Under the pieces are notes generated by a model. The model was not told where the DNA came from and did no database searches. It saw only the letters and a program-made list of their open reading frames with translations. A DNA stretch of 36,863 nucleotides from Gammaproteobacteria bacterium (GTDB taxonomy: Bacteria; Pseudomonadota; Gammaproteobacteria; Steroidobacterales; Steroidobacteraceae): the NCBI GenBank assembly GCA_030040575.1, contig JASHTK010000243.1, positions 1 to 36,863 on the forward strand, given 5' to 3'. Of this stretch, positions 13,383 through 21,567 are shown one piece after another. The translations under genes were made by a program, and so were the position numbers. Numbering within the stretch: the first letter of the stretch is position 1; each line of letters opens with the position of its first letter.

Positions 13383-14813
13383 ATGCCGCCCCACGCTGCG
13401 CGAACCATCGTCATTGTCGGCGCCGGCTTCAGCGGCACGACGGTCGCGATCAATCTGCTGCGGCTCGCCGGGAGCGAGCCGCTCACCCTGGTGCTCCTCG
13501 ACCGGGTGCGCGGAGCCCGCGGCCTCGCGTACGCCCGCCGCGAATACCCCTACCTGCTCAACGTCCCGGCCGGGCGGATGGCGGCGACCTCCGCGGAGCC
13601 CGCCGAGTTCCTGGCATTCGCTCAACGTCGCCGGCCCGGCACGACGGCCGAAGACTTCCTGCCCCGCGAGCTCTACGGGGATTACCTCGAGGACGTGGTG
13701 AGGGCCGCCGAGCTCGCCTCTCCGGCTCACGTGCGCGTCGAGCGTGTGCACGGGCAGGCGAGCTTCATCGAGTCGCAGCGCGGCGCCGCGCCGATCGCCG
13801 TACATCTTGCCGACGGGCGCAGGCTCCACGCGGATGAGGTCGTGCTCGCCCTCGGCAATCCGCCTCCGGCGCGGCTCGCGGGCGCGGAGGGGCTATGGGG
13901 CTGCCCTGGCTACGTCGACGACCCGTGGCGCGAGCCGCCCGCCTTCCGTCCGGGCGAGAAGGTGCTCGTGGTCGGCACGGGCCTCACGATGGCGGATGTC
14001 GTTCTCGCCGGATCCGCTTGCGCCCCGAGCGCCGTCACCCATGCGATCTCCCGCCACGGCCTGCTGCCGCTCGCCCAGACCGCCCTGCGCCACACGCCGA
14101 TCGAGGCGGATGCGCGGGCCGTGCTGCACGCGGCATCGCTCTCGATGCGCCGCCTGTGGCGCGCGGTCCGCGCGCTGGTCGAGCACCTGGAGCGCCGCGG
14201 CGCAGACTGGCGCGAGTCCGTGACGCTTGTGCGCAATCTCGCGCCCGCCCTGTGGCAGCGCATGCCTCTCCGCGAGCGGCGCCGCTTTCTCCGGCACGCG
14301 CGCGCCTACTGGGAAGTCCATCGACACCGGCTGCCGGATCGCACCGCGGCCGGGCTCGATGAGCTGAGGAGGCAGGAGCGGCTGCACGTGCACGCCGGTC
14401 GGATCGTCGCGCTCGAGCGCGCCCACGGGCGAATCCGCGTGGACTGGCGTGCGCGCGGCGCGGAGCGCCTCTCGACTTTATGGGTCGATCGAGTGATCAA
14501 CTGCACCGGACCGGATTACGACGCGCGTCGCTCGCGCGATCCGCTGCTGCGGTCGCTCCTCGCGCAAGGCCTCGCGGTGGCGGACGGCCTCGGGCTCGGA
14601 CTGCGCACCGGCGCGCATGGCGCGCTGATCGATGCGCGCGGCCAGGCGGCCGGCCATCTGTACTACGTCGGCCCGATGCTGCGCGCCGACCACTGGGAGA
14701 CGACGGCGGTCCAGGAGCTGCGCGGACACGCCGAGCGCCTGGCGCGCCATCTGACGGCGCCGAGCGCGGGGCGAAGACTCCCGATCGCCGAGGCCCTCAC
14801 TGCCCCGCCGTGA
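13383..14813 (+). CDS. FAD/NAD(P)-binding protein (NAD_binding_9-like)
   Basis: [23 protein letters not shown] Rossmann motif, [22 protein letters not shown], second dinucleotide motif [13 protein letters not shown]. Confidence 0.85.
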
Positions 14814-15831
14814 TCTGGTCGAAGATGCCGCCCTCGTCGAATTGCTCCCGCTGCACCTGCGCCCAGCCCCCGAAATCGGCGATCGTGACGAGGCGCACCT
14901 GCGGAAACTCCGCCGCATGCTCGGCTGCGACCTCCGGGTCCCGCGGCCGATAGAAGTGGCGCGCGATGATCTCCTGAGCCTCCTTGCTGTAGAGGTATTC
15001 GAGGTACGCCTGCGCGAGCTCGCGGGTGCCGTGACGCAAGACCACCTCGTCCACGACGGCGACGCACGGCTCCGCGAGGATGCTGATCGAGGGGACGACG
15101 ATCTGCAGGTCCTGCGTTCCCTCCTCCTCGATGGCAAGGTGCGCCTCGTTCTCCCACGCGAGCAGCACATCCCCGATACCGCGCTGGACGAACGTCCCGG
15201 TCGCGTCCCGCGCGCCCGTGTCCATCACCGGGACGTGCTGGTAGAGCTCGCGCACGAATTGCCTTGCGGTCGCTGCGTTGCCTCCGGGCTGGTGCAGCGC
15301 CCACGCCCAGGCGGCAAGATAATTCCAGCGCGCACCGCCCGAGGTCTTCGGGTTCGGCGTGATGACCTGCACGCCGGGCCTGATGAGATCGCCCCAGTCG
15401 TGAATGCCCTTCGGGTTGCCCCGCCTCACGAGGAACACGATCGTCGAGGTGTACGGTGCGCTGTCATCCGGCAACCGGCTCTGCCAGTTGAGCGGCAGCA
15501 GCTTGCCCCGCGTCGCGATGGCGTCGATGTCGCCCGCGAGCGCGAGCGTCACGACATCGGCCGGCAGGCCCGCGATGACCGACTGGGCCTGCTTGGCGGA
15601 GCCGCCGTGCGACATCTCGACCCGCAGGATCTGTCCGGTCTTCGCGCGCCAGTAGCGCGCGAACGCGGCGTTGTAGTCGCGGTACAGCTCCCGCGTCGGA
15701 TCGTAGGACACGTTGAGGAGGGTCACGGTGTCGGCCGCCCGTGCCACCGTCGGCGTCACGATCGCGGCTGAAGCCGCGGTCAGCAGCGCGCAGGCCGCGG
15801 CACCGTGGAGGAGGGAGCTAAATCTTCGCAT
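14797..15831 (-). CDS. sbp: Sulfate/thiosulfate ABC transporter periplasmic substrate-binding protein
   Basis: Signal peptide [70 protein letters not shown]; alternative start 15843. Confidence 0.92.
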
Positions 15832-15902
15832 GACAGGTTCCATCGCGAGTCGAGCGATCTGCGGCGGCGCGCCGTTGCGCCATCCGCGCAAGCTAGATCG
15901 GA

Positions 15903-15993: not shown

Positions 15994-16482
15994 TCACTCC
16001 TCGGGCGCGTGCGGATCGATGATCCGGATCGGCAGGTCCCAGTGCGCCTCGACCAGCTTCCAGCGCTCGTTCTCCTCGCGACGCAGCGTCTTGCGGTCCG
16101 GAAAGAGCTGGCGCTCGATCACGCTCTCCTGCTCCGGAGCGAGGATGTTCTTGTACACGATCAAGACAGTGTAGTCCCAGCGCTCATCCTCGCTCGTGTG
16201 CAGGCGGGGCCGGTAAATCGTGTAGCTCAGCACATCCCCGAGCTGCTTCTCCCGATCGAGGATCCGCAGCTGGTACTTCTTGAACCGATCGAGGAACTCA
16301 TCGGCGTAGCCCCACTTGACCTTGTAGACCCATTCGACGATGTAGGGCTGCGTGAGGGCGGGCGAGTCCTGAGCCGCGGACGGCGGCGCCGCTGCGATCG
16401 CACCCATCGCGCCGAGCGATGCGACGCCCCAGAGCAAGCGGCGCACGACGCCGCGTAACCGAGACGAACCGTGCCTCATCAT
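15994..16482 (-). CDS. Hypothetical exported protein
   Basis: Signal-peptide-like N-terminus ...LLWGVASLGAMGAIAAAPPSAAQ then charged alpha/beta-like domain YIVEWVYKVKWGYADEFLDRFKKYQLRILDREKQLG. Confidence 0.8.
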   Translation of the reverse strand: MMRHGSSRLRGVVRRLLWGVASLGAMGAIAAAPPSAAQDSPALTQPYIVEWVYKVKWGYADEFLDRFKKYQLRILDREKQLGDVLSYTIYRPRLHTSEDERWDYTVLIVYKNILAPEQESVIERQLFPDRKTLRREENERWKLVEAHWDLPIRIIDPHAPEE

Positions 16483-16717: not shown

Positions 16718-16921
16718 ATGCACGACTGCGCTCAGCCCTGCCGCGTCATTGACCTCGCGGAATATCGCGCGCGGCGCGTGGCGCGCGCCTCAACCGCGCC
16801 GCCCGCCCGCTACGTGCTGTGGTATCCCGGAGTCGGGTTTTTCGGGCCGCACCCGCCTCGCTCCGCGCAGCGCGACTCGGAGCGCGGATTCGCCGCCGAG
16901 CGCTTCGAGCGCCGGCCCTAG
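16718..16921 (+). CDS. Possible small protein (67 aa) upstream of XRE-cupin gene
   Basis: MHDCAQPCRVIDLAEYRARRVARAS...; plausible composition but no strong SD. Confidence 0.3.
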   Translation: MHDCAQPCRVIDLAEYRARRVARASTAPPARYVLWYPGVGFFGPHPPRSAQRDSERGFAAERFERRP

Positions 16922-16948: not shown

Positions 16949-17602
16949 ATGAAGCAGGCCGCGCCGGTGCCGGGCACGAGGAAAGGCGAAGCGCCACCGC
17001 CGAAGGACCCAGGCCCACCCCATCGACCTCACGATGCGGGAATCGGCGCGGTCGTCGGCGGACGGCTGAAGCACCTGCGCGAGCAAGCCGATCTCTCGCT
17101 CGAGCAGCTCTCGCGGCTCTCGCACGTGAGCCGCGGAATGCTGAACCAGATCGAGCTCGGGCGCAGCGTGCCGACCGTCACCGTGCTCGCGCGGATCGCC
17201 GAGGCCTTTGAGCTCCCCGTCTCGGTCTTCTTGACGCGCGAGAGCGCCGACAGCCTTCAGGTCCTCAAGCTGAGCGAGGCAAACGTGCTGCGCTCGGCGG
17301 ACGGCCGGTTTACCTCACGCGCGCTCTTCCCTTTTCGCGGCGCGCGTAAGACGGAATTCTACGAGCTCAAGCTGCAACCCGGCTGCAACCATCGCAGTGC
17401 CGCGCACGGCAGCGGAACGACGGAGAACCTCGTGGTCGCAAGCGGCACGGTGGAGATCGAGGTCGCGTCGGCTACGTATGCGCTCGCCGCGGGCGATGCC
17501 ATCCACTTCGCCGCCGACGTGCCGCATGGCTACCGCAATCGCGGATCGGACGCCGCGGTCGCCTACCTCGTAATGGCCTATCCGCAGTCCGTGACGTACT
17601 GA
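16949..17602 (+). CDS. XRE-family HTH regulator with C-terminal cupin domain (SutR-like architecture)
   Basis: VGGRLKHLREQADLSLEQLSRLSHVSRGMLNQIELGRSVPTVTVLARIAEAFELPVSVFL; cupin LVVASGTVEIEVASATYALAAGDAIHFAADVPHGYRN. Confidence 0.9.
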   Translation: MKQAAPVPGTRKGEAPPPKDPGPPHRPHDAGIGAVVGGRLKHLREQADLSLEQLSRLSHVSRGMLNQIELGRSVPTVTVLARIAEAFELPVSVFLTRESADSLQVLKLSEANVLRSADGRFTSRALFPFRGARKTEFYELKLQPGCNHRSAAHGSGTTENLVVASGTVEIEVASATYALAAGDAIHFAADVPHGYRNRGSDAAVAYLVMAYPQSVTY

Positions 17603-17612
17603 GCCTGCCGGC

Positions 17613-18113
17613 TCAGTGAGTGCAGACCATCACCGGCACGGCACCGCACATCATCGTCATCGGCATGCCGCAGCTCATCATGCGGGTCATGGTCTCGCAG
17701 CACATCTTCAGCATGTCCATGCTCATCATGCCGGTCGGGGTCATCATGCAGGTCATGCCGTGAGCGCCCATCTCGCAGCTCATCGCCGGCATCATCGCCA
17801 TCCCGCAGCAGCTCATCATCGGCATCCCCGCGCAGGCGAGCGAGCACGGCGTGCCGCTCTTCATCATGCCCGCGAGCATGGCGCACATGTCCTTCATCAT
17901 CTCCAGGGTGCCGCCCTCCCCCGGCATCATCACGCACTTCATGCCCTTCTCGGTCATCGAGCAGGTCATGCGGCACGCCATCGGCACCATCATCGGCACC
18001 GGCATCGACATCGGCATGGGCATTGGCATGGCGGACATCATGCTCATCGGGGACATCGGGGTTTGCATGCGGGCGGCGGTCGTCATGGCGGCTCTCCAGT
18101 CATCGAGGCTCAT
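17613..18113 (-). CDS. Met/Cys-rich protein with two tandem 53-residue repeats
   Basis: 166 aa; about 50 Met and 15 Cys by hand count; repeats at residues 50-102 and 112-164 align without gaps. Confidence 0.7.
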   Translation of the reverse strand: MSLDDWRAAMTTAARMQTPMSPMSMMSAMPMPMPMSMPVPMMVPMACRMTCSMTEKGMKCVMMPGEGGTLEMMKDMCAMLAGMMKSGTPCSLACAGMPMMSCCGMAMMPAMSCEMGAHGMTCMMTPTGMMSMDMLKMCCETMTRMMSCGMPMTMMCGAVPVMVCTH

Positions 18114-18276
18114 AACTCAATCGACTAACATCATAACCATCGCCCGATATCCGTTCAATCCGCGGCCGCTTCACCGCGGTTTCATCCAATATAACGGATC
18201 CACGGATGTGATCGCGGACACGCCGCCCGGCGCGTGTTGACGTCTCAAACAGAGGCGCGCGCGACGCTGCGCGCAT

Positions 18277-18298: not shown

Positions 18299-18541
18299 GC
18301 GGCGCGGCTCCCTCCGCGAGCGGAAATTTGATTGAGCGCGCTGCGCGGAGCCGCAACATGACGTTTGGCTCTAAGCTCAGTCGAATCGATCATTCAAACA
18401 GCCTTGTCTTTCGAATGCGCGCCGCATACATTTTGAACACGCGAACGGTGATCGAAGAACCATGTGCCTGCCCCGAGCGCAAAGCGCGCCGCGGCGCGCC
18501 GAACCGCTGAGCCCAGCCACGACTACCGAGGGGAGCCACTT

Positions 18542-19936
18542 ATGTCCGCGACCACATCGCCCGCGACCGCCTCGATCCAGCAGGCGCCGAGCCGGCCCGA
18601 GCTGCTCGGCAAGGAGGATTGGTGGGCCATCTGGATCGGCCTCGGGCTCCTCGCCGCCGCCGTGATCCTCTTCTCCTCGGGCTCCAGCATCGGCTGGCTC
18701 GCCCTCGCGCCCGCGAAGTGGCACGCGCTCCCGCAGCTCGGCGCACAGCTCGCGGCCCATGCGGTTCAATACCTCGCGCTCTTCCTGCTCTGGGCGGTGA
18801 TTCTCGGCGTCGCGGTCGCCGCGCTCGGCATTCCGCTGAGCGAGTTTCTCCCCTCCTTTCTCTTCATCTACATCGGCTCCATCGCGATCTTCGCGCTCGG
18901 TCAGTGGGACAAGGCGGACCACTACAACCTCGAGCCGCCGCTCGTCGCGCTCGTGCTTGGGCTTGCGATCGCCAACACCACGCGGCTGCCGCGCTGGCTC
19001 GAGTCCGGCTTCCGCGTCGAGTTCTACATCAAGACCGGCATCGTGCTGCTCGGGGCCACCCTGCCGTTCACGCTGATCCTCTGGGCCGGTCCCGTTGCCG
19101 TCGTGCAGGCCGCGATCGTCTCGCTCGCGACGTTCGGTACGATCTTCTTCGTCGGCAAGCGGCTCGGCCTTGATCGCCGGCTCGCGGCGACCCTCGGCGC
19201 GGGCGGCGCCATTTGTGGAGTGTCCGGCTCGATCGCCATCGCCGGGGCGGTCGGGGCGAAGAAGGAGCACGCACCGATCGCGATCTCCCTCGTGATCCTC
19301 TGGGCGATCGTCTTCATCTTCGCGTTACCGCTCGCCTCCCGCGCGCTGCATCTGCCGACCGGGGTCGCGGGCGCCTGGATCGGAACGTCCGAGTTCGCCG
19401 ACGCCGCAGGCCTTGCCGCCGCGCAGACCTACAGCGACTACGCCGGCCATGTCGCCGGCATCCCCGGACACGCGGACGCCGCCATCAACGCTTACACGCT
19501 GATGAAGGTGATCGGCCGCGACATCTGGATCGGGATCTGGGCGCTCATCCTGTCGATCGTCGCGACGACGCGCTGGGAGTCGACCGGCATCGAAGGCCGC
19601 GCCGGCGCGGGCGAGGTCTGGCGGCGCTTCCCGAAATTCGTGATCGGCTTCCTCATCGCCTCGCTCGTCGTCACGGCGATCGCCCACGGCTATGACTACG
19701 CGAGTTACACGAAGAGCCTCGTGCCGAAGCTCGTCGGGCCGGTGAAGAACCTGCGCACCTGGGCGTTCATCTTCTGCTTCTTCAGCATTGGACTCACCAC
19801 CCGCTTCGCGGACTTCGCCAAGGCCGGCTCCAAGCCGTTCTATGCGTTCACGGCGGGCGTGGTCGTGAACGTCGTCTTGGGCTTTGTGCTCTCCACGCAG
19901 GTCTTCGCGAGCTTCTGGACGGCGCTCGGCCAATGA
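18542..19936 (+). CDS. YeiH/UPF0324-family putative sulfate exporter
   Basis: Multi-TM protein; NTTRLPRWLESGFRVEFYIKTGIVLLGATLPF, ATLGAGGAICGVSGSIAIAGAVGAKKEH, GTSEFADAAGLAAAQ, NAYTLMKVIGRDIWIGIWALIL. Confidence 0.88.
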   Translation: MSATTSPATASIQQAPSRPELLGKEDWWAIWIGLGLLAAAVILFSSGSSIGWLALAPAKWHALPQLGAQLAAHAVQYLALFLLWAVILGVAVAALGIPLSEFLPSFLFIYIGSIAIFALGQWDKADHYNLEPPLVALVLGLAIANTTRLPRWLESGFRVEFYIKTGIVLLGATLPFTLILWAGPVAVVQAAIVSLATFGTIFFVGKRLGLDRRLAATLGAGGAICGVSGSIAIAGAVGAKKEHAPIAISLVILWAIVFIFALPLASRALHLPTGVAGAWIGTSEFADAAGLAAAQTYSDYAGHVAGIPGHADAAINAYTLMKVIGRDIWIGIWALILSIVATTRWESTGIEGRAGAGEVWRRFPKFVIGFLIASLVVTAIAHGYDYASYTKSLVPKLVGPVKNLRTWAFIFCFFSIGLTTRFADFAKAGSKPFYAFTAGVVVNVVLGFVLSTQVFASFWTALGQ

Positions 19937-20151
19937 GCGTCCGCGTTTCTCCGGTGGCGGCGGCTCTGCGCTGCGCGGACTGCCGCCACTTTTTCAATGC
20001 ACCGCAGCTGCTGGAGGAAAAGATCGCAGGCCTCAAGGTGATGGGATCGGCGTACGGCGCCGTGCGGGTCGGGGACGGGCTGTGCCGGCTTCACGATCGC
20101 TATCTGTCCGCCGACTACCGCTGCGCGCGCTTTGCGCCCCGTGCGGCATAG
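19933..20151 (+). CDS. Small four-Cys protein (72 aa) translationally coupled to the exporter
   Basis: ATGA overlap with exporter stop; CADCRHFF...GLCRLHDRYLSADYRCARF. Confidence 0.65.
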   Translation: MSVRVSPVAAALRCADCRHFFNAPQLLEEKIAGLKVMGSAYGAVRVGDGLCRLHDRYLSADYRCARFAPRAA

Positions 20152-20361: not shown

Positions 20362-21567
20362 ATGAACAATCGCCATTCGACGGCGCCTGCTCCCTCGCCT
20401 AGCCTGTCGAGTATCGAGCGGCAGTCTCAGGTCGCAGAGAGTGGAGTCATGATGAGGGAGTCGGATTCGAGGCTACTGGCGTTTCCGGGCGCCGCGGAGC
20501 TCAGAGCAGCGTCCAAGGTGAAGCCACCGCTCTTCAGCGACCCGCGGTCGCTCGCGGTGCTGGCGTTGCTCGACCGAGTCGCGCCCACCGACGTGACGGT
20601 GCTCTTGAGCGGGGAGACCGGGACCGGCAAGGAGCTTGCGGCGCGCTACATCCACGAGCGCAGCCGGCCCCACGGGCCGTTCGTCGCGGTCAACTGCGGC
20701 GCCTTCAGCGAGAGCCTCGCGGAGGCGGAGCTGTTCGGCCACGAGGCCGCCGCCTTCACCGGTGCGCAGCACGCTCGCCCGGGCTGGTTCGAGGCCGCCG
20801 ACGGCGGCACCTTGTTCCTCGATGAGATCGGCGACATGCCCCTTTACCTGCAGGTGAAGCTGCTGCGCGTGCTGCAGGAGAAGCAGGTCGTGAGAATCGG
20901 CGCGCGCAGGCCGATCCGCGTCGATGTGCGCATCGTCGCGGCGACCAACGTCGACCTCGAGGCCGCCGTGCGGGCGCGGCAATTCCGCCGCGACCTGTAC
21001 TATCGACTGAACGTCGCGACGGTGCAGCTGCCCGCGCTGCGCGAGCGCCCGGGCGACATCGTGCCGCTCGCCCGGCACTTCATCGAGATGCAGGCCCGGC
21101 GGCTCGGGATCGAGGGTGCCGGGCTGTCGCCCGCCGCCGCGCAGACCCTGACGCGCTACTCATGGCCTGGAAACGTGCGGGAGCTCGAGAACGTCGTGAG
21201 CGTCGCCCTCATCATGAGCCGCGGCGGCCTCCTCGAGGCGGGCGATCTGCGCCTCGGCGCTTTCGCCGACGCCTCACCGCAGAGCGCGCAGGCCGATTGC
21301 CCCCCCGCCGATTGCGTTGCGGACAATGCCATCACGACGATCGAGCAGGGCCTACGCGACCTCCTCGATGTCGGCGAGCAGGCGATCTACGAGCGGGTGG
21401 AGCGGCTGCTCCTCAGCACCGCCTTTGGCCATTGCGGCGGCAATCAGGTCCATACCGCCCGGCGACTCGGCATCTCCCGCAACGTGGTGCGCGCGCAGCT
21501 CAAGCGCTTCGGCCTTCTCGGTCGTGAGGCCGCGGCGGCCGCGCTCGGCGACGTGGGCACGGCATGA
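20362..21567 (+). CDS. Stand-alone sigma-54-dependent transcriptional activator (AAA+ and Fis HTH, no obvious sensor domain)
   Basis: Walker [15 protein letters not shown] loop variant, Walker [26 protein letters not shown]-terminal HTH; start may be internal (about 20449-20452). Confidence 0.92.

Follow-up and report, generated by a model that had tools for sequence, protein, structure and literature searches.

The copper storage proteins Csp1 and Csp3 are small bacterial proteins with many sulfur ligands, built as all-helical four-helix bundles lined with Cys; in the cytosolic Csp3, 18-19 Cys face inward, and thiolates account for most of the Cu(I) binding (PMC5171941). MrpX and BcrX are small, Met-rich scavengers of hypochlorite/HOCl, located in the periplasm, with MXKDX repeats and genes found beside MsrPQ and an ECF sigma factor (PMC8315932). 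CopM, Ctr1 and the other Mets-motif proteins are also Met-rich and bind copper, mostly outside the cytosol, and plants have Met/Cys-rich stores of sulfur amino acids (delta-zein and 2S albumin) that belong to the secretory pathway. To our knowledge, no bacterial protein has been described as a store of sulfur amino acids, and a literature search on bacterial Met/Cys-rich storage proteins turned up none either, most of the papers being on plant seeds.

The locus analyzed here lies in a stretch of 36,863 nucleotides (the window; contig JASHTK010000243.1, assembly GCA_030040575.1) from a gammaproteobacterium of the family Steroidobacteraceae and codes for a Met/Cys-rich protein (MCR). MCR is small and rich in sulfur ligands like the Csp proteins, but it is mostly Met and its predicted fold is alpha/beta; since strand-strand-helix-strand repeats are predicted and the MCR profile matches no Csp chain in the PDB, membership in the Csp family was discarded. 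With MrpX and BcrX it shares small size and Met richness but neither the periplasmic location, the repeats nor the gene neighbors. A scavenger of this type was also rejected, as no signal peptide is evident and the neighbors are an XRE-cupin regulator, YeiH and a sulfate-binding protein (Sbp), not msrPQ or an ECF sigma factor. Unlike most Mets-motif copper proteins, MCR has no evident signal peptide, its Cys number 15-17 and cop genes are absent from its surroundings; its likeness to the plant proteins was judged by composition. The MCR family and its three-gene cassette (small basic protein, XRE-cupin regulator and MCR) are new, and no described family, fold or system that we compared matches them. 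The features of the window are as follows:

14797..15891, minus strand: sulfate ABC transporter substrate-binding protein, Sbp (NCBIfam 481.8 bits, cut-off 288)
16718..16921, plus strand: small basic partner, 67 aa (VIDLAEYRARR...RYVLWYPGVGFF), upstream of the regulator
16949..17602, plus strand: XRE-cupin regulator (HTH + Cupin_2, from Pfam), convergent with MCR
17599..17616, no strand: inverted repeat CTGAGCC-GGCA-GGCTCAG between the convergent MCR and regulator genes, read from the sequence
17613..18086, minus strand: MCR, 157 aa from the likely start (the ORF reaches 18113)
17622..17780, minus strand: MCR repeat unit 2, residues 112-164 of the 166-aa reading
17808..17966, minus strand: MCR repeat unit 1, residues 50-102 of the 166-aa reading
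18130..18158, minus strand: sigma-70-like MCR promoter, TTGAAC-17-TATGAT
18185..18198, minus strand: proximal operator-like site, TCCGTTATATTGGA
18205..18218, minus strand: distal operator-like half site, TCCGCGATCACATC, 20 bp upstream of the proximal site
18464..19936, plus strand: YeiH/PF03601 membrane protein (sulfite resistance/putative sulfate exporter family), divergent from MCR
20362..21567, plus strand: sigma-54-dependent activator, with homologues beside MCR in L007 and L029
31972..32946, minus strand: CysB-family LysR regulator (NCBIfam CysB 424 bits, cut-off 436), 14 kb from MCR

Translation of the minus-strand ORF (17613-18113) gives 166 aa with 50 Met and 15 Cys, a richness that the first-pass annotation of this DNA had reported and, if anything, understated. 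The two gapless 53-residue repeats it described were also recovered: the units are identical at 18 of 53 positions, including 5 Cys and 7 Met, and an alignment as good appeared in 4 of 20,000 shuffles (both units shuffled, best of 21 registers). Reading the sequence by eye, we likewise found no evident signal peptide. The frame that had been read from 18113 is real, but an alternative start within it had been overlooked: ATG 18086 (MTTAARMQTP..., 157 aa) is the likely one, since a GGAG motif precedes it and the predicted promoter lies 44-72 nt upstream, a placement that would leave ATG 18113 only ca. 10 nt past the predicted transcription start. The inverted repeat at the other end of the gene is a possible bidirectional terminator for MCR and the regulator.

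Contig scans and whole-genome searches recovered nine full-length MCR genes, one split over two contigs (G546) and one deletion scar. Apart from the window, the full-length versions come from G012, a Steroidobacter MAG (L006), a gammaproteobacterial MAG (L007, genome G863), Pseudoxanthomonas suwonensis (L008), Luteimonas panaciterrae (L009) and three more genomes of the P. suwonensis family (G650, G717 and G798). Among the genomes searched, MCR is confined to the Steroidobacteraceae and to the family of Pseudoxanthomonas and Luteimonas, and it is rare in both, with 4 of 217 and 7 of 299 genomes, respectively (one of the seven being the remnant in G668); samples of 369 genomes of the class and 399 of the phylum had none beyond the window's own genome. 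In the G668 scar (L026 9600-10250), the last ca. 12 codons of the regulator are fused to the last ca. 26 of MCR, next to a sigma-factor gene that also neighbors MCR in the relatives of G668, which indicates that the cassette can be lost. Neither Pfam nor NCBIfam gave a significant match to MCR, and the sole match of its profile among PDB sequences was a CO dehydrogenase (E=2). A mobile-element origin found no backing in plasmids, phages or viral contigs, which gave no MCR match, in searches where the BLAST low-complexity filter may hide Met-rich matches. Judged by its sequence, MCR is a rare, previously undescribed family of small proteins.

The composition of the nine full-length proteins is extreme: 32-41% Met and 10-11% Cys (42-51% together), or 48-62 Met and 15-17 Cys per ca. 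150 aa, with a sulfur content of ca. 13-15% by mass. Ile, Leu, Val, Phe, Trp and Tyr together make up just 2-9 of the 125 residues of the folded part. Thirteen Cys and 35 Met are invariant across the nine sequences. When the folded parts of the two bacterial families are compared, 0.86 of the Met and 0.91 of the Cys are retained versus 0.35 of the remaining residues (Pro and Gly not counted); Leu and Val, though possible core substitutes for Met, are poorly retained (0.39 and 0.55). In the disordered N-terminal tail, Met retention is 0.77 versus 0.18 for other residues, as would be expected if sulfur content itself were under selection. This pattern of retention shows strong selection for Met and Cys as sulfur residues. 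The first-pass annotation had made the gene depend on homologues with the same C/M pattern and on selection acting on this frame, and both were found: homologues preserve frame, length and Met/Cys columns, and pN/pS over all MCR pairs is 0.47 in the sense frame versus 0.86 in the antisense open frame. Close pairs have dN/dS values of ca. 0.13-0.34. We regard the MCR ORF as a real coding gene under selection. The opposite strand holds a His-rich ORF (17616-18128, plus strand) open for 170 aa, which was rejected as the true gene, its CAT codons being ATG codons read in reverse and pN/pS being lower in the sense frame.

The AlphaFold2 model of MCR has a mean pLDDT of 76; past the first 26 residues, which are disordered, most values are 80-89. 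Two runs, on the window and the Luteimonas proteins, agreed on how the predicted elements follow one another: a strand-strand-helix-strand unit that occurs twice, plus extras. The alignment used had a depth of only five sequences, and this shallowness makes the fold a hypothesis. Foldseek matched it to no PDB or viral (BFVD) structure at E<=0.001. Along the predicted strands Met and Cys alternate (for example, C-x-M-x-C-x-M), so that one face of the sheet would be almost entirely sulfur.

The regulator combines an N-terminal HTH (PF13560/PF01381) with a C-terminal cupin (PF07883), all above the cut-off. It adjoins MCR in 9 of the 10 intact or split loci (G012 has no regulator), in convergent orientation in the Steroidobacteraceae and divergent in the P. 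suwonensis family. Close regulators, taken as those at least ca. 55% identical to the query from the same family, were found in 3 of the 217 and 6 of the 299 genomes, every one of which carries MCR. The remaining matches at E<=1e-25 have 36-40% identity, and those examined adjoin kbl. What had first been noted as an adjacent XRE-cupin gene is, on these counts, a dedicated and conserved partner. SutR (YdcN) of E. coli has the same domain architecture and 32-35% identity, and this XRE-cupin has been linked to sulfur utilization in the work cited as reference 29 in PMC8464067. Orthology to SutR as a route to function was not supported, the kbl-adjacent XRE-cupins being about as similar (36-40% identity). 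The regulator gene has an in-frame TAG in G650 (L023 10542-11129) and a frameshift in G798 (L025 10480-11120), both next to an intact MCR, and in these two genomes it may be decaying or mis-sequenced. The small basic protein (ca. 60-70 aa), which the first-pass annotation had missed together with the tandem operator-like sites, is present in all 10 intact or split loci. It adjoins the regulator in nine, apparently forming one operon with it, and in G012 a relative adjoins MCR (E=1.9e-6 versus 0.3 for the next match, with a profile built without G012).

In all nine full-length loci, the sense strand carries a sigma-70-like promoter of good quality. Upstream of MCR, two TCCGTTATATTGGA-like sites (TCC-N8-GGA-like) are found exactly 20 bp apart in each of the nine regulator-bearing loci, where the pair was matched by at most 1 in 2000 Markov resamplings; G012, without the regulator, has no tandem sites upstream of MCR (0.31). 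This co-occurrence suggests that the operator-like sites are tied to the regulator, and their position directly upstream of the -35 box would point to activation. The proximal site of the window is the only one in its genome (83% complete) at up to 2 mismatches. A genome-wide regulon was rejected on this basis, and the regulator seems to be local.

The neighborhood of the cassette differs between the two families. In the window, YeiH scores 157.6 bits with PF03601 (cut-off 24.5) and 90.7 bits with TIGR00698 (cut-off 232.6); the gene is single copy in the window genome (G000) and in G863 and lies beside the cassette in both. In Salmonella, sulfite resistance depends mainly on YeiH (PMC12880088). 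One of the two Sbp (TIGR00971) copies of G000 is 1.7 kb from MCR, all three copies in the complete 4.65-Mb genome of G012 are within 12 kb of it, and the sole copy of G863 is on the same 30.8-kb contig. CysB-family genes are near MCR in these three genomes, in G012 next to the Sbp genes. The cassette of G863 is part of an organosulfur island, where SfnB-like and SfnG-like oxygenases, SsuA-like binding proteins, a flavin reductase and sigma-54 activators are encoded as well. Sulfur-assimilation genes thus surround the cassette in three of the four Steroidobacteraceae (the L006 contig is too short to judge), with several of the matches below NCBIfam equivalog cut-offs, and the three neighborhoods are not fully independent, as they may share a common ancestor. 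In the P. suwonensis family, the neighbors seen are housekeeping genes, e.g., a sigma factor, so the cassette stands alone there; the flanks scanned had no Sbp, the nearest being >0.5 Mb (G717) and >1 Mb (G650) away. No copper or Hg resistance genes were seen in any MCR flank examined, the lone metal-related neighbor noted being a CDF cation efflux gene ca. 4 kb from MCR in G012. As for redox functions, MCR has peroxiredoxin genes on its flanks in L006 and is followed by redoxin-fold and DsbD_N-like genes in G012.

Other genes recur around the cassette. A Cys protein of 72-74 aa (CxxCRHF...DGLC.LH...C..F.P) is encoded directly behind YeiH in the window (19933-20151, plus strand) and in L029 (11129-11353, minus strand) and might be a zinc-ribbon partner of YeiH. 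In the window (13383-15891) and in G012 (L053 452-3025), an Sbp gene forms a pair with a PF13454 FAD-NAD(P)-binding gene. Genes resembling 2OG-Fe(II)-oxygenases are near MCR in L006 (6009-6992, by Pfam) and L010 (5399-6424, similar by eye). Between Sbp and the cassette, the window also codes for a 162-aa protein (15994-16482, minus strand) with no significant Pfam or NCBIfam family.

The reading that we tentatively favor, at somewhat less than an even chance, is that MCR acts in the cytosol as a reserve of sulfur amino acids or a sink for them. It rests on the composition, the retention of Met in the tail, the absence of an evident signal peptide, the cupin regulator dedicated to MCR and the neighboring sulfur genes. 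When reduced sulfur is plentiful, the XRE-cupin regulator would sense a sulfur metabolite, bind the two operator-like sites and switch on the strong MCR promoter; the cell would then make MCR, whose later breakdown would return Met and Cys. Sequence analysis shows the family, the selection on Met and Cys, the three-gene cassette, the co-occurrence of operator-like sites and regulator and, for three of four Steroidobacteraceae, the sulfur neighborhood. We infer that MCR is cytosolic, which way it is regulated, what the regulator senses, that sulfur amino acids are stored and later released, and what the small partner does. Counting against a reserve, the positions of Met and Cys, and not their content alone, are conserved in the predicted fold, which metal ligands would fit too; there are no sulfur genes beside the cassette in the P. 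suwonensis family; and the regulator is not specifically close to SutR. The first-pass annotation had left the choice between a copper buffer and a sulfur reserve, of which the genomic context (CysB, Sbp, YeiH and SfnB/SfnG-like genes) supports the reserve and gives copper no support.

A buffer for soft metals, in which two alpha/beta units with a thiol- and thioether-lined interior hold many cytosolic Cu(I) (or Ag/Hg) ions under a dedicated regulator, appears unlikely, if still a serious competitor. The 13 Cys and 35 Met invariant in all nine proteins and the sulfur-lined sheet face predicted from their alternation would suit it, and Csp3 is a precedent for a cytosolic, Cys-lined Cu(I) protein (PMC5171941). 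However, a hydrophobic core made only of Met and Cys would alternate likewise, MCR lacks an export signal, so its thioether sites would have to function in the cytosol, no Cu or Hg resistance gene is found in the flanks examined, and the Steroidobacteraceae neighborhood concerns sulfur. In a cytosol rich in glutathione, Met thioethers bind Cu(I) weakly, and XRE-cupins are not among the Cu-sensor classes known to us. In favor of a metal buffer, the Met-rich tail resembles Mets motifs.

Some other function, such as a regulatory or structural complex with the small basic protein or an Fe-S or other cofactor protein, is improbable: that protein is the most constant partner of MCR (10 of 10 loci, including the regulator-less G012), but no known family, fold or motif backs a specific alternative. 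We give a slim chance to an oxidant sink, with Met and Cys sacrificially oxidized by peroxide or hypochlorous acid and re-reduced by Msr and thioredoxin. MrpX and BcrX are the precedent (PMC8315932), and the redox genes in L006 and G012 would agree with it, but these are not common to other members, the flanks scanned have no Msr gene, the window cassette has no ECF sigma regulator, MrpX is periplasmic while MCR has no evident signal peptide, and a sink would not need strict Cys positions. That the MCR frame is no gene but a product of ATG-rich DNA, the true coding sequence lying on the opposite strand or nowhere, is hardly credible in spite of the 170-aa open frame opposite, as homologues keep the frame, pN/pS is lower in sense than in antisense, and promoter, ribosome site and operator-like sites are conserved on the sense strand.

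Thioether copper sites usually lie outside the cytosol, and if MCR is a metal buffer, it would be Met-based and cytosolic, contrary to this rule. If it is the reserve that we favor, bacteria can bank reduced sulfur in protein, and MCR is possibly, although we hold this with similar caution, a bacterial store of sulfur amino acids with its own sensor-regulator and small helper protein, the sulfur counterpart of the nitrogen and carbon reserve polymers. The gene is present in named isolated strains, e.g., Pseudoxanthomonas suwonensis and Luteimonas panaciterrae.
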